DNA from: a virus | IMG/VR virus record: IMGVR_UViG_3300042564_004473 | Location: 1-54,426 of that record | Reading direction: 5' to 3' (one strand) | Length of the DNA: 54,426 nucleotides | Shown here: positions 1,110 through 52,439 of the stretch, in pieces | Layout of the letters: each line of letters opens with the position of its first letter | How positions within the stretch are numbered: the first letter of the stretch is position 1 | The notes under the pieces: model-generated | The model's database searches: none | Told to the model about the DNA's origin: nothing | The model's input: the letters and a program-made list of their open reading frames with translations, nothing else | Program-made: the position numbers and the translations under genes

Positions 1110-2393
1110 ATGAAAATATTAATTAAAGAATCTCAATACAAAGTATTATTGGAACAAGGTTTTGAAATGATGGAACCATCACCAATAACTAAAGCTTATA
1201 ATGAAATTATTAGTGGTGCCAAGTATTGGATGGGAACAGATAAAACTAAAATACTTAAAGCATTTGATTATATTAAAAATGTACAAGATTTTAAAACATT
1301 GATTTCAATGTTTAAAGATAAAAGAACGGGATATGGAAGTTTTGAAGAAATGATAAACAAGGAATATGATAGGCTAGACTTTAAGGATATTATAAAACTT
1401 AAAGATAAATTATATTCAATTGGAGTTATTCTTAATTTTATTTCTGGTAAAAATATTGCTGGAAATCCAATTTTTTTAGAAGGTGTCAAAATATCCTATG
1501 TTAATAAAACACCTATTAAATCTTTACAACTAGTTCCAAAGGAGTGTAGTTCTAAATGGCAGCCTCAATTAGAGAAAGCAAAAAATTATTGGATTCAATG
1601 GTTATCAAGTCCAATCACCAAAAATAAATTTTTGAATAATTGGAAAAAGGTTGAAAAAAATATGACTTCGGCTGAAGTTGAAAATATATTTAAAAAATAT
1701 ATAGATTCGTTGAGGGTTTTAAAATTATATTATTTTGATTCTAAATTAATTCCGACAGAATCTAATTCCTACGCATTTGTTATTAAAAGTAATCCTGATA
1801 AAATTTTTGTGAATTGTTCTCAAAATGACCCAGACCCTTATGGAACTTTAATTCACGAGATACAACATCTGTTATATGAAATAAAACCATTAAATCCTGA
1901 GGTTCAAATTGCAAATGTTTTTGTGAATTCAAATACTAAAAAGTCAACAATTGAAACTTTTTTTGATTTTAAAAAAAATCCTAAACAAAAAACTTTTTCT
2001 TATGATAAAAAACTTTTTAACCCAAATGAAATAGCTAAACTTAATTCTACAAGTACACAAATTGGTGTTCCATTTGAATCTTTACAATATATATTAAATA
2101 ATTCGAAATATCACGAAAAGAGAAAACCAGGATATGCCTGTAGTGAAACTGAAAAAATGTCTAATATTATGTCGGTTAGAAATTTATTTGGTGTAAAACC
2201 TGGGCAAAATATAACTAAAGAAATGTTATTACCGTATATTAAAGAGGAAAAAAACAATGACGATGTTTCTTGGGTGTTAGCTTGTTGGGCGTTAAGAGGT
2301 TTTCCTGATTTGAGTGAAATGTTAAATAAAATAAATGACTTGGCTTACCAAAACGCAAACCAAAATAACAACAGTAGTACTCGAACGGTGTAA
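1110..2393 (+). CDS. Leader-bearing HExxH metallopeptidase-like protein, copy 1
   Basis: 427 residues. The start MKILIKESQYKVLLEQ is a short leader ending in L-L-E-Q, the hydrophobic-x-Glu pattern of T4-type capsid-targeting peptides. The body contains GTLIHEIQHLLYEIKPLNP near residue 245, an HExxH zinc motif, and a conserved PKECSSKWQ segment before it. The C-terminal part (SNIMSVRNLFGVKPGQNITKEM) is nearly identical in the next two genes. Residues 25-110 are shared with copy 3 but missing from copy 2. Inference: a zinc peptidase carried in the virion and delivered to the host; substrate unknown. Confidence 0.8.
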   Translation: MKILIKESQYKVLLEQGFEMMEPSPITKAYNEIISGAKYWMGTDKTKILKAFDYIKNVQDFKTLISMFKDKRTGYGSFEEMINKEYDRLDFKDIIKLKDKLYSIGVILNFISGKNIAGNPIFLEGVKISYVNKTPIKSLQLVPKECSSKWQPQLEKAKNYWIQWLSSPITKNKFLNNWKKVEKNMTSAEVENIFKKYIDSLRVLKLYYFDSKLIPTESNSYAFVIKSNPDKIFVNCSQNDPDPYGTLIHEIQHLLYEIKPLNPEVQIANVFVNSNTKKSTIETFFDFKKNPKQKTFSYDKKLFNPNEIAKLNSTSTQIGVPFESLQYILNNSKYHEKRKPGYACSETEKMSNIMSVRNLFGVKPGQNITKEMLLPYIKEEKNNDDVSWVLACWALRGFPDLSEMLNKINDLAYQNANQNNNSSTRTV

Positions 2394-2443: not shown

Positions 2444-3451
2444 ATGAAAAATTTGTTTAACAATATTTCTCAAGAAGAAAAAAATAGAATTCTTGAAATG
2501 CACTCAAGTAAAAAAAGTGTAATATCTGAACAAAAAAATCCATTTCCATTACTAACTCCTAAAACATACACACCTCATAAATATTTACAACAAGTTCCAA
2601 AGGAGTGTAGTTCTAAATGGCAACCTTTGTTAGATAAAGCTAAAAACTATTGGATTCAATGGTTATCAAGTCCAATTACCAGAATTAAATTTTTAATTAA
2701 TTGGCAAAAAGTTGAAAAAAATATGACTTTGGCTGAAGTTGGAAATATTTTTAAAAAATATATAGATTCGTTGAAGGTTTTAAAATTATATTATTATAAT
2801 TCTAAATTAATGCCGGAAAATGCGGATGCCTTTGCATTTGTTGATAAATTTGAACCTGAAAAAATTTTTGTGAATTGTTCTCAAAATGATGAAGACCCTT
2901 ATGGTACTTTAATTCACGAGATACAACATATGTTATATAACATAAAACCATTAAATCCCGATGTTCAAATTGGAAATGTTTTTGTGGATTCAAATACTAA
3001 AAAATCAACACCTAAAACTTTTTTTGATTTTAAAGAAAATCCTAAACAAAAAACTTTTTTTTATGATAAAGAACTTTTTAACCCAATTGAAATAGCTAAA
3101 CTTAATTCTACAAGTAATCAAATTGGTGTCCCATCTGAATCTTTACAAAAAATATTACGTAAAGCGAAAAATAAAGAAAAGGAAAAACCTGGATATGTCT
3201 GTAGAAAAACTGAAAAAATGTCTAATATTATGTCGGTTAGAAATTTATTTGGTGTAAAATCTGGACAAAATATAACTAAAGAAATGGTATTACCGTATAT
3301 TAAAGGAGAGAAAAAGCATACCGATGTTGATTGGATATTATATTGTTGGGCGTTAAGTGGTTTTTCTGATTTGAACGGTATGTTAAATAAAATAAATGAC
3401 TTGGCTTACCAAAAAACAAACCAAAATAACAGTAGTACTCGAACGGTGTAA
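2444..3451 (+). CDS. Leader-bearing HExxH metallopeptidase-like protein, copy 2
   Basis: 335 residues, closely similar to its two neighbours from PKECSSKWQ onward, including GTLIHEIQHMLYNIKP near residue 157 (HExxH zinc motif). Its N-terminus is different: NISQEEKNRILEMHSSKK then VISEQK, a second leader type also seen at 33494 and, in shorter form, at 10003. The ~85-residue domain after the leader in copies 1 and 3 is absent. So the catalytic body is joined to a swapped leader that still ends in I-S-E-Q. Function inferred as for copy 1. Confidence 0.8.
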   Translation: MKNLFNNISQEEKNRILEMHSSKKSVISEQKNPFPLLTPKTYTPHKYLQQVPKECSSKWQPLLDKAKNYWIQWLSSPITRIKFLINWQKVEKNMTLAEVGNIFKKYIDSLKVLKLYYYNSKLMPENADAFAFVDKFEPEKIFVNCSQNDEDPYGTLIHEIQHMLYNIKPLNPDVQIGNVFVDSNTKKSTPKTFFDFKENPKQKTFFYDKELFNPIEIAKLNSTSNQIGVPSESLQKILRKAKNKEKEKPGYVCRKTEKMSNIMSVRNLFGVKSGQNITKEMVLPYIKGEKKHTDVDWILYCWALSGFSDLNGMLNKINDLAYQKTNQNNSSTRTV

Positions 3452-3498: not shown

Positions 3499-4716
3499 AT
3501 GAAAATATTAATTAAAGAATCTCAATACAAAGTATTATTGGAACAAAGTAATTCAAATATACAAAAAGCCTATAATGAAATAGTTGCTGGAGCCAAGTAT
3601 TGGATGGGAACAGATAAAACTAAAATACTTAAATCGTTTGACTATATTAAAAATAAACGAGATTTTGAGACATTGAAATCAATGTTTAAAGATAGAAGAA
3701 CGGGATATGGAAGTTTTGAGGAAATGATAAAAAAGGAATATGATGTACTTGACGTTAATGATATTGAGAAACTTAAAACTAAATTAAATTCAATCGGTGT
3801 TAATTTTAATTATGTTTCTAATTATCATTCTATGTTGACTAATAATTTTCTCATTGGGGAACCGTATTTAGCTCCAAAGGAGTGTAGTTCTAAATGGCAA
3901 TCTCAGTTAGAGAAAGCAAAAAATTATTGGATTCAATGGTTATCAAATCCAATTACCAAAAGTAAATTTTTGAATAATTGGAAAAAGGTTGAAAAAAATA
4001 TGACTTCGGCTAAAGTTGAAAATATATTTAAAAAATATATAGATTCGTTGAAGGTTTTAAAATTATATTATTATGATAATAAATCTGAATCGGACCCACT
4101 TCTAAAAGACTCTTACGCTTATGTAAATGAAAGTAATCCTGATAAAATTTTTGTAAATTGTTCTAAAAATGACAGAGACCCTTATGGAACTTTAATTCAC
4201 GAGATACAACATATGTTATATGATATAAAACCATTAAATCCTGAGGTTCAAATTGCAAATGTTTTTGTGAATTCAAATACTAAAAAGTCAACAATTGAAA
4301 CTTTTTTTGATTTTTTTAAAACTTCAAATCAACAAAGTAATCAATCAATGGAATTACGTAATATTGAAATTAATAGTAAAAAAGTTGGAACTACAAGTGA
4401 TACTTTGAAGTCGTTATTACGTAAAGCCAAATTTAAAGAAAATAAAGACCCCGGATATGTTTGTAGAGAAACTGAAAAAATGTCTAATATTATGTCGGTT
4501 AGAAATTTATTTGGTGTAAAATCTGGACAAAATATAACTCAAGAAATGGTGTTACCGTATATTAAAGGAGAGAAAAACCATACCGATGTTAGCTGGGTGT
4601 TATTTTGTTGGGCGTTAAAAGGTTTTCCTGATTTGAACGGTATGTTAAATAAAATGAATCAATTGGCGTACCAAAAAACAAACCAAAATAACAACAGTAA
4701 TACTCGAAAGGTGTAA
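3499..4716 (+). CDS. Leader-bearing HExxH metallopeptidase-like protein, copy 3
   Basis: 405 residues. The leader MKILIKESQYKVLLEQ is identical to copy 1, and the following GAKYWMGTDKTKILK domain is shared with it. GTLIHEIQHMLYDIKP lies near residue 233. The stretch corresponding to residues 275-305 differs from both other copies (FFKTSNQQSNQSMELRN), so the family is diverging in the region just after the active site. Its ATG overlaps the stop of a seven-codon remnant of the next gene's start. Inferred virion-packaged peptidase. Confidence 0.8.
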   Translation: MKILIKESQYKVLLEQSNSNIQKAYNEIVAGAKYWMGTDKTKILKSFDYIKNKRDFETLKSMFKDRRTGYGSFEEMIKKEYDVLDVNDIEKLKTKLNSIGVNFNYVSNYHSMLTNNFLIGEPYLAPKECSSKWQSQLEKAKNYWIQWLSNPITKSKFLNNWKKVEKNMTSAKVENIFKKYIDSLKVLKLYYYDNKSESDPLLKDSYAYVNESNPDKIFVNCSKNDRDPYGTLIHEIQHMLYDIKPLNPEVQIANVFVNSNTKKSTIETFFDFFKTSNQQSNQSMELRNIEINSKKVGTTSDTLKSLLRKAKFKENKDPGYVCRETEKMSNIMSVRNLFGVKSGQNITQEMVLPYIKGEKNHTDVSWVLFCWALKGFPDLNGMLNKMNQLAYQKTNQNNNSNTRKV

Positions 4717-7884: not shown

Positions 7885-9693
7885 ATGAAATTATTAAATT
7901 TATTAAGTAAAAATATTATACTGGAGGTTTCTGAAAAAGTTAAGAACCAACTCCTTGCCAAATTTAAACCAACTACTGAAGATAGTGATGAAACTATTTT
8001 AAACAATATTGATATGTTCGACAGATACAAACAAGGTTTATCTGTTGATAATAGAGATATTATGAAATACTCGTACGAAGATTTGAAAAATCTTATACAA
8101 TCTAAAGAAACAACTAAAGGTTTAAATGATATTTTTACAGAATTTAAGAAAAAAGAAAAAGGTATTGAGAACAATAATTTAAAAAGATATATTAAAAAGT
8201 TTTTAGAGATTCAATCAGAACTTCCAAAGGACAAACAAAACATATTAAAATTTAATTTTTTAAATTTAGTTAAATTAGTTGACGATTTATATCCAAGATT
8301 ATTCGTTAAAAAAATGTTTGGGAAATATTCTAAAGAAAATCCTAATTTAACTCAAGACCAAATACTTTATTATCTTGATTCTTATTATGAAAATTTCGAT
8401 TTAATTCCTTTTGATACTAAAGGTGTTGATAAGATGTCTTTTAGTGAATTAGAACACCTTTTAGACGGTTTACAAGGTAAAAAAGAACAGTCTAATAAAA
8501 ATAAAGAAGATTTAAGTAATATTGACTTAAAATACAACGAAAATGGGTTAAAAATTTTCGCCCCAACAACTAAAGACCAATGTATCAGATTAAGAAACGG
8601 TAGAGGATGGTGTACAAGTCGTGAAGGTAGTGGAAATATGTACTATAACTACAGATTAGGTCACTCGAGAACACTTTATTATGTTATTGATGAAGATAAA
8701 GACTTTGATGATTTAAACTTCGCTACGGTTATTCTTGTTGACCCTAGTGGAAGAATGGCGATGGCGGATAAATCAAATACAGGTACATACGGTGGTAGTA
8801 CAAATATACCATTTAGTCAAATTGTATCAAAAGTACCAAAATTACAAGGTTTGGAATACATTTTTGAACCGAAACCACTTACTCAAGAAGAAAAACAATT
8901 AATTAATACTGTTAAAAATGCTAAAGTTGGAGACAATCCAATGGAATCGTTTAATACTCTTCAAGAAGTTGAGATGTGGTTAGAGTATAACAGTCCAAAA
9001 TTAACTGATATTCAATACTCAAACATTACTTCTGAACTTAAAAAGAAATATATTGCCTTAGGTATGGATTTAAGTTCAAATATGATTAAATCATCAGAAC
9101 CTGAAGTTTTAAGATATTATATCTCTAAAAAAATTGATAGTATTAAATCTAAGGGGATTAATAATCTTACTACCGAAGACATTGCATTACTTAATACACC
9201 GATATTAAAGAAGGTAAAAGAAGAATTTAAACCAAAATTTGCAAAAGAATTAACTTCTGGTGGAGGAACTAAAGTTGAAATCGAATACCCTACTGGTAAT
9301 TCATCTAAATTTGTTGCTTTATATGGTTTTGAAGACTTGTTTGATAGTTTACCTGATAATATGACTAACTTCTTATTTAACAATAAATCAAAGACAGAAG
9401 TTAATTTAGAATTACCATCATCAATTTCAAGATTTCAAGATTTGGAGGCTTTATTATTAATGAATTGTGTTAGTTCTATTCCTGAAAATATTGGAGATTT
9501 AAAAAATCTTAATTTCTTAGCGTTACCTGATAATACTAATTTAACTTCATTACCTTCGTCAATATTAGACCTACCTAGTTTACTATTCATTAATTTAAAA
9601 GGTAGTAATCCTATGTTACCTGAAGGATTTAATGATAGATTCTCTGAAGAGGGTGGTAAAGGAAGTGGATTCTTTACTAGAAAAATGGGTTAA
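7885..9693 (+). CDS. Large WCTS-motif protein with C-terminal leucine-rich repeats
   Basis: 602 residues. The N-terminus LLNLLSKNIILEVSEKVKNQ is leader-like (I-L-E at residues 11-13). Around residue 236 is RLRNGRGWCTSREGSGNMY, the G-x-x-WCTS motif also found at 15809 and 51645; the surrounding 110 residues (KIFAPTTKDQCIRL to PFSQIV) form the shared domain. Residues 480-590 hold leucine-rich repeats (LPDNMTNFLF, IPENIGDLKNLNFLALPDN, LPSSILDLPSLLFINLKGS). The domain's activity is unknown to me; the LRR suggests protein binding. Probably a virion protein with a host target. Confidence 0.75.
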   Translation: MKLLNLLSKNIILEVSEKVKNQLLAKFKPTTEDSDETILNNIDMFDRYKQGLSVDNRDIMKYSYEDLKNLIQSKETTKGLNDIFTEFKKKEKGIENNNLKRYIKKFLEIQSELPKDKQNILKFNFLNLVKLVDDLYPRLFVKKMFGKYSKENPNLTQDQILYYLDSYYENFDLIPFDTKGVDKMSFSELEHLLDGLQGKKEQSNKNKEDLSNIDLKYNENGLKIFAPTTKDQCIRLRNGRGWCTSREGSGNMYYNYRLGHSRTLYYVIDEDKDFDDLNFATVILVDPSGRMAMADKSNTGTYGGSTNIPFSQIVSKVPKLQGLEYIFEPKPLTQEEKQLINTVKNAKVGDNPMESFNTLQEVEMWLEYNSPKLTDIQYSNITSELKKKYIALGMDLSSNMIKSSEPEVLRYYISKKIDSIKSKGINNLTTEDIALLNTPILKKVKEEFKPKFAKELTSGGGTKVEIEYPTGNSSKFVALYGFEDLFDSLPDNMTNFLFNNKSKTEVNLELPSSISRFQDLEALLLMNCVSSIPENIGDLKNLNFLALPDNTNLTSLPSSILDLPSLLFINLKGSNPMLPEGFNDRFSEEGGKGSGFFTRKMG

Positions 9694-11303: not shown

Positions 11304-12320
11304 ATGAAAAAAATTATAAAATTAAACGAGTCAGACTTACGAAGAATTGTATCTCGTGTAATTAATGAGCATGATAGTAATATAGTCGAACCGACAGGAC
11401 AGTATTATACTCTTGGTGGTTTTTATTTTTATGTTGATGGTGGTAAGATGTGTTTAGCCGACAAATCAAATGGGGAATTATCTCCTAACTTATCTGTTGA
11501 ATTTCCATCCACAACTGAATTATCTGCCGAGTGGACGCAAAAAACACAAGAAGTTGATGACGAGAATATTAAAGGGAAAGAGTTGTCAGGATTGGCATTC
11601 GACCCTAAAATGAAAAATGCGATTAATTACGGTAAGTATATCTACGGAAAAAACCAAGCAATTGTGAACTTTGGTAGTATGATACCTGTATTATTTTTCT
11701 CAACAAAATACAACGCACCTACATTAGGAGGAGTTGTTGTTGGAACTGAGTTTCCTCAAGGTGTTGAGGGTAAATTAAACCTTATCGACGCTAAACCAGG
11801 TAATAAAATCTTTTTCCAACAATCCGCATTTAAACACGGTAAAGAATATGGTATTAGATTGGAAGTTTCAATGCACGGACAACCTATATCGTTAAAAGAT
11901 TTTGGTATTAGTCAAAATATGATGAAATTACCAAAAACATATAACATTGGTGATTTCTTTGCTGAAAACAGTGCAACACCTCATAACTTACATACAGCGT
12001 CATTTGTTGATACAATTAAAAACTTCATTAAAGATGGTGGTAAAATAAACCGTATTATGGTTAACGCATCCACATCTAAAATGCCGGCAGGGCACGTTGA
12101 TAATAACACATCAAATTCTAAATGGTCCGATGTTATGGATTATGATGATATGGTTGTTGGTAACAATGATGATGGGACAGGTAATTTACAATTATGTAAA
12201 GCGAAAGCTCATAACACATATAATGAATTAAAGAAAGCAATTCCTGAATTGGTAAGTGCCCCTTTCGTATTGAAAGCTGCAGGACCACTTGGGGAATATG
12301 TTCATATAAAATTTGAATAA
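11304..12320 (+). CDS. Leader-bearing protein of unknown function
   Basis: 338 residues from the ATG at 11304, chosen because it gives the leader MKKIIKLNESDLRRIVSRVI ending in V-I-N-E; an upstream in-frame ATG at 11244 would bury it. The body is mostly beta (YYTLGGFYFYVDGGKMCLAD; EFPQGVEGKLNLIDAKPGNK) and ends ...EYVHIKFE. I recognise no catalytic motif. It is the closest match in the window to the leader at 47583 and is presumably a packaged virion protein. Confidence 0.75.
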   Translation: MKKIIKLNESDLRRIVSRVINEHDSNIVEPTGQYYTLGGFYFYVDGGKMCLADKSNGELSPNLSVEFPSTTELSAEWTQKTQEVDDENIKGKELSGLAFDPKMKNAINYGKYIYGKNQAIVNFGSMIPVLFFSTKYNAPTLGGVVVGTEFPQGVEGKLNLIDAKPGNKIFFQQSAFKHGKEYGIRLEVSMHGQPISLKDFGISQNMMKLPKTYNIGDFFAENSATPHNLHTASFVDTIKNFIKDGGKINRIMVNASTSKMPAGHVDNNTSNSKWSDVMDYDDMVVGNNDDGTGNLQLCKAKAHNTYNELKKAIPELVSAPFVLKAAGPLGEYVHIKFE

Positions 12321-12357: not shown

Positions 12358-12921
12358 ATGGCAACAGGTAGAAAAGTTTCATTTACTAATACTGGAGATA
12401 CTGTAGTTTATTTGAACTATCAAAGACTTAGTGACGGAATGTTAGAAAATGAAGTAGAATTAAATCCAAATGAAAAAAAAACAATTTGGTACGTTGACGG
12501 GACATTCTCAACGGATATAGTAAACCCACCTATCGTGGAATCAGATAATAGTGTTTGGCCACCTATACCACTAACACCATCAAATACTCCAACTCCAACG
12601 GTAACACCAACACAAACACCGACAAACACACCAACCCCAACACAAACACCAACAAATACACCAACTCCAACAAATACACCAACAAATACACCAACTCCAA
12701 CAAATACACCAACTCCAACAAATACACCAACAAATACACCAACAAATACACCAACAGTAACACCAACAAATACACCAACAAATACACCAACAAATACACC
12801 AACAAATACACCAACAAATACACCAACAAATACACCAACAAATACACCAACAAATACACCAACAGTAACACCAACAGTAACACCAACTCGTACACCAACA
12901 CCAACTCCTACAGTACCATAA
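12358..12921 (+). CDS. Thr-Pro-Asn repeat protein (virion surface or fibre-like)
   Basis: 187 residues. Residues 1-60 form a small beta domain ([20 protein letters not shown] ... [10 protein letters not shown]). From residue 78 the sequence is a low-complexity run of [12 protein letters not shown] and TPTVTP units to the end. Such stalks are common in secreted or virion surface proteins and are often glycosylated in Bacteroidota, which is an inference here. The underlying DNA is a 12-bp minisatellite and probably changes length quickly. A terminator lies at 12991. Confidence 0.8.
12586..12909 (+). repeat. 12-bp minisatellite AATACACCAACA
   Basis: Units of AATACACCAACA and variants (AATACACCAACTCCAACA, ACACCAACAGTAAC) follow one another across this stretch, encoding TPTNTPT. 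Between 12773 and 12860 the units are nearly perfect. Confidence 0.9.
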
Positions 12922-15808: not shown

Positions 15809-16750
15809 ATGGGAAAAATAGATGAGTTAAAAAAACAAAATCCTAATTTTAATATTAATATAATCGATATTATCAATGACATTTATGGGAAATCAAAATA
15901 TACCGAAATGGTGGTTAATTTAATCAAAAATAAGTATAATAAACGTAATAATGATAATAACTATTCCGACATTTATAGAGAGTTAGTTAGAGAATTTAAG
16001 TTAAATCCTGATAAACTTATTACTAAAAATTATTTTGATTTAGTTAATATGATTAGAGTTTTAAGTGAATATATCGGATATAATGAATCTAAAACTATTG
16101 AAAAATTTATTGAACTTAACGATAGAAATTTAATTGTGCAAAACGATTTAACATCATATAAAACATTTGAAGAGTTAGAATTACAAATATCTTTATCCGA
16201 TTTAAAGACTGTTGACAAAGAATTGGAAAAACAAGTTTTAAAATTGTTAGAGACAGATGAGTGGTTAGTTTTAAAACCATTGTCGTATCAAGCGTCAGTA
16301 AAATATGGTTCAGGTACTAAATGGTGTACATCATCTAAAAATGAATCGGAATATTACTTTAGATATAGTAAGAGAGGTATTTTAATTTATTATATTAATA
16401 AAAAAACTGGAGATAAAGTTGCGGGTTTTAAAAATCTTGATTTATCGTATGACAAAGAAACATCATTTTGGACAATAATTGATTTAAGAACTGATTCAAT
16501 TGATTGTGATTTACCTGAAGATGTTATGAATATTTTTAAAGAAGAATTTAAAAATACTAAAAAAACAAATTGGGAACTTTTATCTGATGATGAACGTAAT
16601 AAACAATTAATACAACAAGAAAGTTTGAATAATAAATATAATGTGGATATACATCCTACCGAGGGACACCCAACCGCCGAACTTAGAGTTACAAGAAGAG
16701 GTGATATTGTTTTAGATGAAGAAATTGATGTGAGTGATAGAAGAGCGTAG
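15809..16750 (+). CDS. WCTS-motif protein
   Basis: 313 residues. It begins MGKIDELKKQNPNFNINIID, closely similar to the start of the gene at 51645 (MSRLDRLKEQHPELNISLID). Near residue 155 a segment DEWLVLKPLSYQASVKYGSG leads into TKWCTSSKNESEYYFRY, the same domain as at 7885 and 51645 (G-x-G-TKWCTS). A Cys near a His/Asn-rich turn could be catalytic, but I know of no established activity. The C-terminal 60 residues are polar. Function unknown. Confidence 0.75.
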   Translation: MGKIDELKKQNPNFNINIIDIINDIYGKSKYTEMVVNLIKNKYNKRNNDNNYSDIYRELVREFKLNPDKLITKNYFDLVNMIRVLSEYIGYNESKTIEKFIELNDRNLIVQNDLTSYKTFEELELQISLSDLKTVDKELEKQVLKLLETDEWLVLKPLSYQASVKYGSGTKWCTSSKNESEYYFRYSKRGILIYYINKKTGDKVAGFKNLDLSYDKETSFWTIIDLRTDSIDCDLPEDVMNIFKEEFKNTKKTNWELLSDDERNKQLIQQESLNNKYNVDIHPTEGHPTAELRVTRRGDIVLDEEIDVSDRRA

Positions 16751-17851: not shown

Positions 17852-18440
17852 TAATATTAACGAATCAATTTTAGACGATATTAAAGATTTAATTCTTAAG
17901 TCAGATAAAGAATTAGCATCCAATGAAACCTATCAGAAACTTAAAAAGTTTTTTGAACCAATAATCAATGGAGTTAAAGGTTCTGAAGAAATAACAACTG
18001 ATGTTTTGATTCCTAATACCACAACAACTGACGACGAATTTTATAAAAAAATATTAAGTTGTTTAGGCGCTGAACCAACTAAAGGTAATATGGCGTTTTT
18101 CTATGCTTGGAGACAAGCCGAAGGGGGTTCCGCAGCAAACAATCCATTTAATACCACAAAGAAAATGCCAGGTGCTAAAAAATATAAGAATAATACTCAC
18201 GGAGTTAAGAATTATAAATCTGTTGAAGATGGTATTGAAGCAACTTGTAAAACATTAAAACTACATTACTATACTGATATAGTAGATGGACTTAAAAATG
18301 ACGTTGGGTTAAAAAAATTATCAAGAATGAGTTCCCTTAAAACTTGGGGTACAGGTAGCTTATTAGCGTCTGTTGCTGACGGTTATCTAAAAGGAAGTAG
18401 TCCAAAACCAAAAGATATTAATAAAGGTTATTATGCTTAA
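17841..18440 (+). CDS. Putative lysozyme/transglycosylase-like virion protein
   Basis: 199 residues from the ATG at 17841; the longer in-frame start at 17814 lies inside the upstream gene. The N-terminus NNNINESILDDIKDLILKSD is weakly leader-like. Residues 90-180 contain FFYAWRQAEGGSAANNPFNT and GVKNYKSVEDGIEATCKTLK, a pattern I associate with phage lysozyme-like/glucosaminidase domains, with Glu of AEGG as a candidate catalytic residue. Role would be peptidoglycan cleavage on entry. The assignment is by pattern memory only. Its stop overlaps that of the convergent PPK2 gene by 4 nt. Confidence 0.55.
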   Translation: MKNNNINESILDDIKDLILKSDKELASNETYQKLKKFFEPIINGVKGSEEITTDVLIPNTTTTDDEFYKKILSCLGAEPTKGNMAFFYAWRQAEGGSAANNPFNTTKKMPGAKKYKNNTHGVKNYKSVEDGIEATCKTLKLHYYTDIVDGLKNDVGLKKLSRMSSLKTWGTGSLLASVADGYLKGSSPKPKDINKGYYA

Positions 18441-19519
18441 TTTTCAGGTTTCAAAACTGTAAGAGCTTCAGGATACTCTTTATCTAATAATTCGGTATTT
18501 TTACCTTCATAAGGTATATTTTGTAATACATACCTAATTGCGTTTAACCCTGATACTTTTTTGTCAATAGCATCCAATATAATCCAAGGATGGTTCAAAG
18601 TTGATGTCTTATCAAATAATTTATCTTTAAATTCTGTAAATCTATCCCACAAATCTTGCATTTTAGAATCGTTAGGGGAATACTTCCAATATTTTAATTT
18701 TGAATTTTGTCTCATCTCAAATCTTTTTGCTTGAGTTTCTTTGTCAATTGAGAACCATAATTTAAATAAATAATCCCCATCTTTAACTAAAGAATTTTCA
18801 AACTCTTCAACACCATCCATAAATTCTTGATATTCTTTATCACTACCATAACCCATAACAGGTTCAATTAAACCTCTATTATACCAACTTCTATCAAATA
18901 GGTTAATTTTACCTTTCTCAATTTTTGATTCATATCTTTGCCACCAATTTTCTCTTTCTTCAGGAGTTGGGATTCCCATTGCTATAACATTAAATCCTTT
19001 TGGATTCATATTTTCGGTGAACTTTAAAATTGTTGAACCTTTACCAGCACTATCCCTACCTTCAAACACGATAATAACTGTTTTGTTATTTTTCATTAAC
19101 CACTCTTCTAATTTAAGAAGTTCAACTTGTAACCCGTATAATTCTTTTCTATAAACTTTTTTTGGTATAATTGAAGGTTCTTGAGGTTCAAAAGAATAAT
19201 CATCACTTTCAGGTTCTACGTTATATATTCCTTGTTCTCTCGTTTTTAATGAATCTAAAATTTTTGAAAAATAAGAATCAACATTTTTTTTCTTATCACC
19301 TTTGAATGATAAAACTTTTTTAAGTCCTCTCTCCATTAATTCATAATCGATTATTTTTTCATCACCAATTAATATTATAGAATTTAAATTAGATTCGATT
19401 GATGGTGTCATTATATCATTAACAATAAGAATATCTTTAATTTTTTTAAGATATGTTTCGATATTACCTTCATTTATAATACCTCTAATTTTTTGAATTT
19501 CGTTTAACAGTTTGTTCAT
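18437..19519 (-). CDS. ppk2: Polyphosphate kinase 2 with N-terminal leader
   Basis: 360 residues from the ATG at 19519; the in-frame ATG at 19537 would add six residues before the leader. The kinase domain is clear: Walker A GRDSAGKGS (154-162), IPTPEERENWWQRYESKI, Walker B-type FDRSWYNRG (208-216) and the KYWKYSPNDS lid region. PPK2 enzymes phosphorylate NDPs or NMPs from polyphosphate, or the reverse. The unusual part is the ~120-residue extension, which begins MNKLLNEIQKIRGIINEG, a leader with I-I-N-E. A TATTTATT box precedes it. I infer an enzyme packaged in the head to act on host nucleotide or polyphosphate pools. Confidence 0.9.
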   Translation of the reverse strand: MNKLLNEIQKIRGIINEGNIETYLKKIKDILIVNDIMTPSIESNLNSIILIGDEKIIDYELMERGLKKVLSFKGDKKKNVDSYFSKILDSLKTREQGIYNVEPESDDYSFEPQEPSIIPKKVYRKELYGLQVELLKLEEWLMKNNKTVIIVFEGRDSAGKGSTILKFTENMNPKGFNVIAMGIPTPEERENWWQRYESKIEKGKINLFDRSWYNRGLIEPVMGYGSDKEYQEFMDGVEEFENSLVKDGDYLFKLWFSIDKETQAKRFEMRQNSKLKYWKYSPNDSKMQDLWDRFTEFKDKLFDKTSTLNHPWIILDAIDKKVSGLNAIRYVLQNIPYEGKNTELLDKEYPEALTVLKPEN

Positions 19520-19520
19520 A

Positions 19521-19532
19521 CTAATAAATATA
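19521..19532 (-). promoter_or_regulatory. TATATTTATTAG box before ppk2
   Basis: On the minus strand TATATTTATTAG ends 1 nt before the ATG at 19519, matching the box before other leader genes and supporting that start. Confidence 0.45.
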
Positions 19533-19565
19533 TTCATTTACAAATGAATAATTAACATATCGAAA

Positions 19566-43048: not shown

Positions 43049-43939
43049 TTAACTTCCAAACATTGCGTCGTAAGTCTGTTCTCCAAAAATACCATCAGGT
43101 TTTATTTCAGCATCTTCTTGGAATTTTTTAACCATCTTTTTAGTTTTTGCTCCGTAATTTCCGTCACAACTATTTTCATCTGTAGCACAAGCTTGGATGT
43201 CATTTGTAAAGGTTTCGCCCGTATATCCATTAGACGCTAAAAAGTTTTGAACCTTTTTAACTAAACTTCCTTTAGCACCTAACCCCATAATTTTATTATC
43301 ATTTGTTATAGCACTAAAATCTGTATCCGTATTTGATACATAACCTGGAGATGATTTAGTTATATTTCTTTCCCAAGTAAGTGTAGGTTTAGCTCCGTCC
43401 CAAGACCAATTTCCTCTTACCACATTTCCTTTTTTACATTTAAACTTATTTGCATATTTATCGTCAAAAAGGTACATAGTACAGTCATTACCATTTGTTG
43501 CCGTGTCCTTAGTTTTAACCTTAATATAATCAAAAATGACACTGCCATCATCAAGTGTGTTCGTACTTACAAATGTCCAATTCGCATCAGTATTACCTGA
43601 ATAATATTTAACTATTTTACTGTAATCGGCATCATCAGTATTTTGAGTTGACGATGATGGTGTTACTGGTGCAGGAGTTGTGTTTGTTGTTGCCGGTGCA
43701 GGAGATGGAGGTGTTGAGGGTGCTGGTGTTGTGTTTGTTGGTTTAAAATACCATCTATTATCTGAACCTTGTTTAACCTCACCTTCAGATTTTTTCTTTT
43801 CTATTTCTGACTGAGGAATTTTAATCCAACCAGGACCCGGAGGACCTGTAGTTGTTGATTGTTCTGAAATAACAACACCTCTTTTATAACCAAAAAGGTA
43901 TTTCATTTCATTTATTTCGTTTAAAAGTTGTTTTTTCAT
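43049..43939 (-). CDS. Leader-bearing wall-binding protein, paralogue A
   Basis: 296 residues. The leader LLNEINEMKYLFGYKRGVVI then SEQ, almost identical to the next gene. After a Gly/Pro start, residues 68-100 are a Thr/Pro/Ala linker (TPSSST, PAPSTPPSPAPA). The central domain (KIVKYYSGNTDANWTFVSTN, YDYIKVKTKD-like, NWSWDGAKPTLTWERN) is shared with the next gene, and the last 70 residues are a peptidoglycan-binding type domain (GLGAKGSLVKKVQNFLASNG; CDGNYGAKTKKMVKKFQ). Likely packaged and peptidoglycan-directed. The linker is missing in paralogue B. Confidence 0.75.
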   Translation of the reverse strand: MKKQLLNEINEMKYLFGYKRGVVISEQSTTTGPPGPGWIKIPQSEIEKKKSEGEVKQGSDNRWYFKPTNTTPAPSTPPSPAPATTNTTPAPVTPSSSTQNTDDADYSKIVKYYSGNTDANWTFVSTNTLDDGSVIFDYIKVKTKDTATNGNDCTMYLFDDKYANKFKCKKGNVVRGNWSWDGAKPTLTWERNITKSSPGYVSNTDTDFSAITNDNKIMGLGAKGSLVKKVQNFLASNGYTGETFTNDIQACATDENSCDGNYGAKTKKMVKKFQEDAEIKPDGIFGEQTYDAMFGS

Positions 43940-47582: not shown

Positions 47583-48509
47583 ATGAAAAAAGTAATAAGA
47601 TTAACCGAATCAGATTTAGAAAAAATCGTTAAAAGAGTTCTTAAAGAACAATCGGTTATTGGTGCGCCTAATTATGGTATGATTGATTGGAAATCATATG
47701 ACAAACCTTCAAATAATTCAACTGATAGGGTTATTGAAATCCAAAAATCCCTTATACGAAAAGGGTACGATGTTGGAAAAAGGGGTGCTGATGGAGACTT
47801 TGGAAGGGCTACCAGAATGGCAATTATAAAATTTCAAAAAGATAATAAGATTAAACAAACTGGTGATGTAGACCCAATAACCGCTAAAGCTTTAGGGGTT
47901 AAACCTATTATATTATCGAAAGATAGTGGATTTATTTTGATATGGGCATTTCCAGAATATGAACCTAAAATTGATGGGAAAGGTATGGGAGACCAACTAT
48001 TTGGTTCAGTAATAAGAAATTTATCAGGTGGAGGAACAAAAGGTACTTATGGTAAATTAGGTCACGGTGGTTGTGTTGTTATTAAATCAAATGGTGATGC
48101 AACTTGTTATGAATTTGGTAGATATCCTGGAGTTAAAAAAGAAGGATATGGAAAAGTATTAACTCACCCATTAGGTAATGTTGCTAAAATTAAAAACGGT
48201 AAATTATTAAATGGTAAACAAGTTGCAGAATTAGCAAGAAGAAAAACTTTTCCTCCCGGACCAACAATGTCAATGACAGTTGCCGAGGTTAAATTACCGA
48301 ACCCATCAAAATCGATTGAATATGCTTCAGTAAAAGAAAGAGATTATAGTGCACTAGATTTTAAAATCGGTGATGAGGCTAATTGTGGTACTTTTGCTCG
48401 TGATGTTGCTTATTATGGAGGAGTTGAGGTGAGTTCGTTTTGTTACCCAACCCCAATTTCAGTTGTGAATAGTTTTAAAGACAAATCAGATAATTTCTAC
48501 GTAGTTTAG
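47583..48509 (+). CDS. Leader-bearing wall-binding and papain-fold peptidase-like protein
   Basis: 308 residues. The leader MKKVIRLTESDLEKIVKRVL then KEQ is the best example of the ESDL type. Residues 45-105 are a peptidoglycan-binding domain (VIEIQKSLIRKGYDVGKRGA; GDFGRATRMAIIKFQ). The C-terminal part has KLGHGGCVVIKSNGDATCYE, FGRYPGVKKEGYGKVL and later EANCGTFARDVAYYGG, an arrangement of His, Glu/Asp and Cys like the permuted papain-fold amidases and T6SS-associated peptidases. Predicted role: cutting or modifying peptidoglycan after delivery. Overlaps the convergent gene by 4 nt. Confidence 0.75.
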   Translation: MKKVIRLTESDLEKIVKRVLKEQSVIGAPNYGMIDWKSYDKPSNNSTDRVIEIQKSLIRKGYDVGKRGADGDFGRATRMAIIKFQKDNKIKQTGDVDPITAKALGVKPIILSKDSGFILIWAFPEYEPKIDGKGMGDQLFGSVIRNLSGGGTKGTYGKLGHGGCVVIKSNGDATCYEFGRYPGVKKEGYGKVLTHPLGNVAKIKNGKLLNGKQVAELARRKTFPPGPTMSMTVAEVKLPNPSKSIEYASVKERDYSALDFKIGDEANCGTFARDVAYYGGVEVSSFCYPTPISVVNSFKDKSDNFYVV

Positions 48510-51644: not shown

Positions 51645-52439
51645 ATGTCAAGATTAGATAGATTAAAAGAACAACATCCTGAGTTGAACATATCGTTAAT
51701 CGATATGTTAGTAAAGGTTGACCCGACTAGTACCTACAAGTACACCGAGTTTTTAATTAAAATGATTAAGGAAATGTTCATCGATGATGATGCCAGTGAT
51801 ATTGGATTAAACATAGGAATAGACATTTTAGGTTGGGATAATGTTGACTCTCTTAATGAATTTGAAATTCATTCTCGTGCGGGTAGAATTAAAAACTCGG
51901 ATATTAGTTCATACAAAAATTGGAAACAAATTGAGAATTCGGTTAAAGATGCGGAAGAAGTTGTTAAACAAAAAGAGGCGGAAAAACAGATTAATAAATT
52001 ATATGATGATTCTGAATGGTTGGTTGTAATTCCTCTTAGTTTTGAATCGTCAAAAGTGTACGGTATGGGAACTAAATGGTGTACCACTCAGGAAAATCAT
52101 TGGAATGATTATATCTCTAACTATAAAATGATTTACATAATCAATAAATTAAGTAATGAGAAATACGCAATCTCGAGAGATAAGAGGTCCGATTCTAAAA
52201 TACAGGCTTGGTTGTCTGATGATAAGGAAACAAGTCCTTTTATGTTACCATTACCCTCAAATATTATGTCAATTATTACTGAAGAAGTTCGTAAAAAAGA
52301 ATGTATTAGGGATTTAATGGGGGGTATTTCAGATGAGATTAAAGATGATGTATATGATGTTATGAAATACATTGAAGGTTTATACGGTAATTACGCCGTT
52401 AATTCGACTAATAATAATTTACCTCCCAGTTATTGGTAA
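51645..52439 (+). CDS. WCT-motif protein
   Basis: 264 residues. The start MSRLDRLKEQHPELNISLID matches that at 15809. At about residue 125 SEWLVVIPLSFESSKVYGMG precedes TKWCTTQENHWNDYISN, the same domain as in 7885 and 15809, with WCTT in place of WCTS. It lies 3 nt after the phosphoesterase and is read in the same direction. Function unknown. Confidence 0.7.
   Translation: MSRLDRLKEQHPELNISLIDMLVKVDPTSTYKYTEFLIKMIKEMFIDDDASDIGLNIGIDILGWDNVDSLNEFEIHSRAGRIKNSDISSYKNWKQIENSVKDAEEVVKQKEAEKQINKLYDDSEWLVVIPLSFESSKVYGMGTKWCTTQENHWNDYISNYKMIYIINKLSNEKYAISRDKRSDSKIQAWLSDDKETSPFMLPLPSNIMSIITEEVRKKECIRDLMGGISDEIKDDVYDVMKYIEGLYGNYAVNSTNNNLPPSYW

Follow-up and report, generated by a model that had tools for sequence, protein, structure and literature searches.

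A capsid-targeting-type leader on a polyphosphate kinase 2 suggests an enzyme carried in the heads of large T4-type phages

T4-type prohead proteases cut after Glu, and the capsid-targeting sequences (CTS) of T4 are short N-terminal propeptides (PMC9026906, PMC5694885), a 10-residue CTS being enough to package and deliver foreign enzymes (PMC9026906). The T4 proteins IPI-III and Alt, the last of which is also an injected enzyme (PMC9026906), carry a short N-terminal leader ending in hydrophobic-x-Glu. The giant Salmonella phage SPN3US packages many proteins in its head, some of them matured by a Glu-cutting prohead protease, with an AxE motif and mostly long propeptides (PMC5694885). Class I polyphosphate kinases 2 (PPK2s), for their part, mostly spend polyphosphate to turn NDPs into NTPs, as does PA0141 with a 75-fold preference and GDP as its favoured substrate, whereas some prefer the opposite direction, polyphosphate synthesis (PMC8776046). 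Here, we describe a gene that joins a PPK2 to a capsid-type leader in the window, a stretch of viral DNA of 54,426 nucleotides (IMG/VR record IMGVR_UViG_3300042564_004473). Both ingredients are known, and their combination is absent from the literature searched, which lies outside most subscription papers and all supplements and yielded no phage PPK2 or phage-head polyphosphate enzyme; nor did PHROGs yield a family matching the window protein. The reading that we favour, with a probability of roughly two in three, is that this class I PPK2 of a large T4-type phage is targeted to the capsid, ejected, and draws on host polyphosphate at entry to make NTPs; what we infer here is packaging, cleavage, ejection, the direction of the reaction and its benefit.

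The window covers part of the genome of a large T4-type phage, with the head module missing. No head genes lie within its 54,426 nt, and the link to the head runs through relatives: 41 of its 72 ORFs have counterparts in the long contigs G001 (321 kb) and G005 (182 kb), several at 60-89% identity, and both contigs encode a T4-type gp21 protease, a gp23 capsid protein and further head genes. A gp21-type (S77) prohead protease together with gp23 was found in G001, G005 and a further relative, G006. A single scan of public viral contigs returned 345 PPK2 relatives, on contigs of up to 321 kb. Divergently transcribed beside the PPK2 gene lies a protein with a type IX secretion sorting domain at its C-terminus (PF18962; 19606-21513), and Flavobacterium phages are among the closest relatives of gp23 in culture, on which grounds the host is likely a member of the Bacteroidota.

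The PPK2 frame is open over 18437..19537 (-), with a possible in-frame ATG at 19537. We place the start at the ATG at 19519, because the Met there is invariant in an alignment of 39 relatives, giving a protein of 360 aa (18437..19519 (-), stop codon included). The Pfam profile PF03976 matches residues 126-347 of the 366-aa form with 228.9 bits (E 7.6e-68; curated cut-off 22.3 bits) and is covered from position 4 to 227 of 229, hence the whole domain; since the match begins at residue 126 of that form, about 117 residues stand before the catalytic core in the 360-aa protein (core: residues 118-345, 18485..19168 (-), delimited by Pfam and solved structures). Walker A, GRDSAGKG (residues 154-161, 19037..19060 (-)), conforms to GxDxxGKG with its catalytic Asp, and the Walker B region reads DRSWYNR (residues 209-215, 18875..18895 (-)); G154-G161 and D209-G216 are invariant in the 39-sequence alignment. 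The signature of class I is an Asn after the Walker B motif (PMC8776046), here the equally invariant N214. By signature and fold the protein is class I-like, although it falls outside the TIGR03707 equivalog, the Pseudomonas-type enzyme (261.7 bits against a cut-off of 301.8). The full PPK2 core with GRDSAGKGS and FDRSWYNRG that a sequence-only reading had reported is thus borne out, and, because the Pfam match, the class I structures, the invariant Walker motifs and the class I Asn agree, the core is complete and very probably active.

That reading had also taken the entire extension, some 120 residues, for a capsid-type leader. Comparison upholds a capsid-type N-terminus, but only about 17 residues belong to the leader and the remainder is a conserved helical domain. 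Three parts can be told apart: the capsid-targeting-type leader MNKLLNEIQKIRGIINE (residues 1-17, 19469..19519 (-)), with a predicted cut after Glu17 (INE|G) and modelled as a helix of low confidence; a four-helix domain (residues 19-96, 19232..19465 (-)), predicted by AlphaFold; and an acidic linker (residues 97-117, 19169..19231 (-)) with low model confidence at 97-113.

The end of the leader follows the rule of T4-type prohead proteases, [LIVM]-x-E. It does so in 44 of the 44 relatives counted, despite varying leader length, against a mean of 27 and a maximum of 36 in shuffles. The gp23 propeptide of G001 ends LINE|A, aligned with IVSE|A in the gp23 of phage immuto, a cultured isolate; from their position and by analogy with T4 gp23, we take both to be the cut sites, and the leader end of the window PPK2, INE|G, compares with LINE|A. 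Furthermore, the leader type is common to otherwise unrelated proteins of these phages. A profile seeded with PPK2 leaders alone, read at a threshold of 8 bits, picked out the N-termini of eight other proteins, with G001's own PPK2 excluded, and none of 987 internal and 1989 shuffled segments. Likewise, [LIVM]xEQ occurs within residues 6-35 of 12 of 55 window ORFs and in none in each of three internal stretches, and near the N-termini of 32 of 304 ORFs in G001 against 7-9 internally; in G005, enrichment by this xEQ measure is weak (7 against 2-7). These internal and shuffled controls rule out a chance pattern. Describing the leader by one regular expression proved too loose and picked up chance matches, and LSEI alone is no evidence of a leader, since a ribonucleotide-reductase-like protein (G001 24783) shows a weak LSEI match to an earlier leader profile.

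Within the window, leaders were found on a peptidase-like ORF with an HEIQH motif (MKILIKESQYKVLLEQ; 1110..2393 (+)), on MKKIIKLNESDLRRIVSRVINE (11304..12320 (+), from the [LIVM]xEQ count), on MKKQLLNEINEMKYLFGYKRGVVISEQ (43049..43939 (-), from the PPK2-leader profile) and on MKKVIRLTESDLEKIVKRVLKEQ, which carries a peptidoglycan-binding domain (47583..48509 (+), from a domain search and the [LIVM]xEQ count). T4 and the window's relatives thus share a gp21-type protease, a gp23 capsid protein and a leader common to unrelated proteins, and the short leader ending in hydrophobic-x-Glu of IPI-III and Alt recurs on the window PPK2. Compared with the T4 internal proteins, the window leader is another dialect and its cargo a polyphosphate kinase, with packaging predicted from sequence; compared with SPN3US, the window type has [LIVM]xE and short leaders.

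A tag of this breadth might instead sort proteins genome-wide to a destination other than the head, such as the membrane or a replication compartment, leaving PPK2 an intracellular auxiliary metabolic enzyme. Many leader-bearing proteins are of unknown function and no virion proteome ties the leader type to heads: none for the window's phage clade was found in the literature searched, and the Baltic Flavobacterium phage paper does not include immuto and reports no virion proteome. We nevertheless regard such sorting as unlikely. The leader end fits the gp23 propeptide site, two leader proteins of G001 (100272 and 102702) adjoin the capsid gene, and immuto encodes many leader proteins at 102-125 kb, next to its head genes. 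Moreover, replication and metabolic proteins lack the leader; neither G001 nor the huge-phage genome LR756502 carries it on ThyA, ClpP, DnaJ or Dam-like proteins. Two immuto ORFs near head genes also have leader-like N-termini, a putative 5'-deoxyribonucleotidase (L132:9856-10455) and an annotated cobalamin adenosyltransferase (L132:17631-18632).

The leaders of huge phages, which resemble the T4 CTS, also speak against non-head sorting. LR756502, LR745206 and LR756501/LR756503 (635-735 kb) encode PPK2s that fall in one clade with the window enzyme (support 100/100) and, like it, have an N-terminal extension and a leader ending in Glu. Their leaders are of a different kind, MINNFIKFINEE and similar, in T4-CTS style (xxxFxxFINEE), whereas the window dialect reads LLNEIxRIKxVMGxxxE; S77 protease matches in these phages fall below the family cut-off. 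The middle domain of the huge-phage PPK2s is weakly similar to the four-helix domain (hhalign probability 51%), which is only suggestive of homology. In the first 400 kb of LR756502 (W01, 642 kb), about 50 of 580 ORFs (loci L139-L158) start with an MKHLKxYKIFES-type leader similar to the T4 CTS, which suggests that this phage may inject a great many proteins, and the huge-phage PPK2 leaders match this style of their own lineage. The dialect also swaps on five further families shared by G001 and W01 (pairs 49837/113187, 100272/141855, 113257/280913, 255156/91808 and 266128/221232). Even in the window's own clade, the HEIQH peptidase-like family differs in its leader, MKILIKESQYKVLLEQ being the window form and MNLNENISRVKELMG that of G001. 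The best explanation for a tag that changes to the local form while staying with its proteins is a function that each lineage's own machinery would read, and, because the leader end matches the protease site, head assembly is the best candidate for that machinery. The two leader dialects are new; capsid-tagged injected enzymes are already a known kind.

If the leader is a capsid-targeting sequence, its roughly 17 residues would take PPK2 into the prohead core, where the gp21-type protease of the phage would cleave after Glu17. The mature protein, consisting of the four-helix domain, linker and core, would remain in the head until it is ejected along with the genome. Once inside the new host, assuming polyphosphate to be present at entry, it would move phosphate from host polyphosphate to NDPs, so that NTPs become available ahead of all phage gene expression; this supply could aid early transcription or offset nucleotide loss. 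Alternatively, a head-borne PPK2 may drain host polyphosphate or run in reverse, disturbing stress responses or defence. The synthetic preference of some class I enzymes would allow this, as would the absence of Ppx/GppA from five phage records, which leaves PPK2 the only polyphosphate enzyme seen there; the usual class I preference for NDP phosphorylation, 75-fold in PA0141, weighs against it, the direction itself being unreadable from sequence, and we find it distinctly unlikely. Among the gene neighbours of PPK2, endolysin-like and other genes recur and no polyphosphate partner gene was seen.

Should the favoured reading, NTP synthesis by an ejected PPK2, be true, these phages would arrive in the cell with an energy enzyme already made, and no polyphosphate enzyme had been proposed for a phage head before within the literature searched; the use of, or contest over, polyphosphate, an ancient energy store, at the onset of infection would become testable. 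We see about an even chance that the wider picture holds, in which widespread T4-type large and huge phages inject a nucleotide-charging polyphosphate enzyme at entry as one of many capsid-tagged enzymes in an arsenal particular to each lineage, with cargo recognisable by its tag from sequence alone. With the two dialects, one could then list the proteins, most of them of unknown function, that are probably injected by many large phages not yet in culture.

SPN3US offers a different model for the extension, as its head proteins include some with propeptides of 124-127 residues (PMC5694885). By analogy, all of the approximately 117 residues might be removed, with the PPK2 core alone staying in the head, and the linker of relatives in the 39-sequence alignment often ends VEE or IEE before a Pro, as such a cut would have it. 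The window's own linker, however, has no [LIVM]xE at its end, and it is at residue 17 that a cut-like site is conserved. The helical domain is, moreover, predicted to be folded: residues 17-100 modelled alone with AlphaFold reach a mean pLDDT of 89.9 and a pTM of 0.80. Fold searches returned no match (best E 4.6 in the PDB and 2.2 among viral models). The whole protein, full extension included, is conserved at 62-80% identity among IMG/VR contigs, and purifying selection acts on all four segments, dN/dS being about 0.22 for the leader, 0.09 (0.087) for the helical domain, 0.05 for the linker and 0.04 for the core. Selection this strong on the helical domain argues against a discarded propeptide, which we hold to be very doubtful.

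Class I PPK2s (5LL0; Sinorhizobium SMc02148, 3CZQ/6DZG; TIGR03707) share the fold, the Walker motifs and the class I Asn with the window protein but lack its leader and four-helix domain. The best solved match, Francisella tularensis PPK2 (5LL0), is 45% identical over 230 aligned columns, and core identity to bacterial class I PPK2s is 42-46%. In solved single-domain PPK2s the equivalent point is preceded by roughly 14-67 residues, which in no case align to the extension, in keeping with the sequence-only reading that PPK2 normally lacks one. Six bacterial relatives emerged from a genome scan that used patterns from the window protein, which distant cases could escape, and their alignments start only at about residue 109-123; one of the six, L082, has a longer N-terminus of unrelated sequence. 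The same extension on ordinary bacterial PPK2s, on which the sequence-only reading had staked itself, was therefore not encountered in the sample reached. That the window gene is an ordinary bacterial PPK2 on a misassigned or prophage contig, as its core identity might suggest, is scarcely credible: no bacterial match spans the extension, phage PPK2s form a clade apart (support 100/100) from a bacterial sample that is small and without Bacteroidota, and the 345 viral relatives, with T4-type head genes on contigs of up to 321 kb, rule out host contamination.

A further hint in favour of the head reading comes from two relatives in which PPK2 is followed, within one ORF, by a domain of phage tail lysozyme (PF18013, E 6.6e-13), giving a leader-PPK2-tail lysozyme fusion of 660 aa (L076:3428-5407; L077:6248-8227). 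The stretch that joins the two enzymes, ...ESKNINETEG, contains another site of the leader-end form, the cut-like KNINE|T.

Several other ORFs deserve mention. Three tandem HEIQH peptidase-like paralogues (1110-2393, 2444-3451 and 3499-4716) bear two kinds of leader, and their G001 relative (205652-206677) a third. A GxxWCTS domain recurs in the window ORFs 7885-9693, 15809-16750 and 51645-52439, the second of which matches phrog_17056 and phrog_28193. Finally, the window ORF at 12358-12921 consists mostly of Thr-Pro repeats (TNTPTPT).
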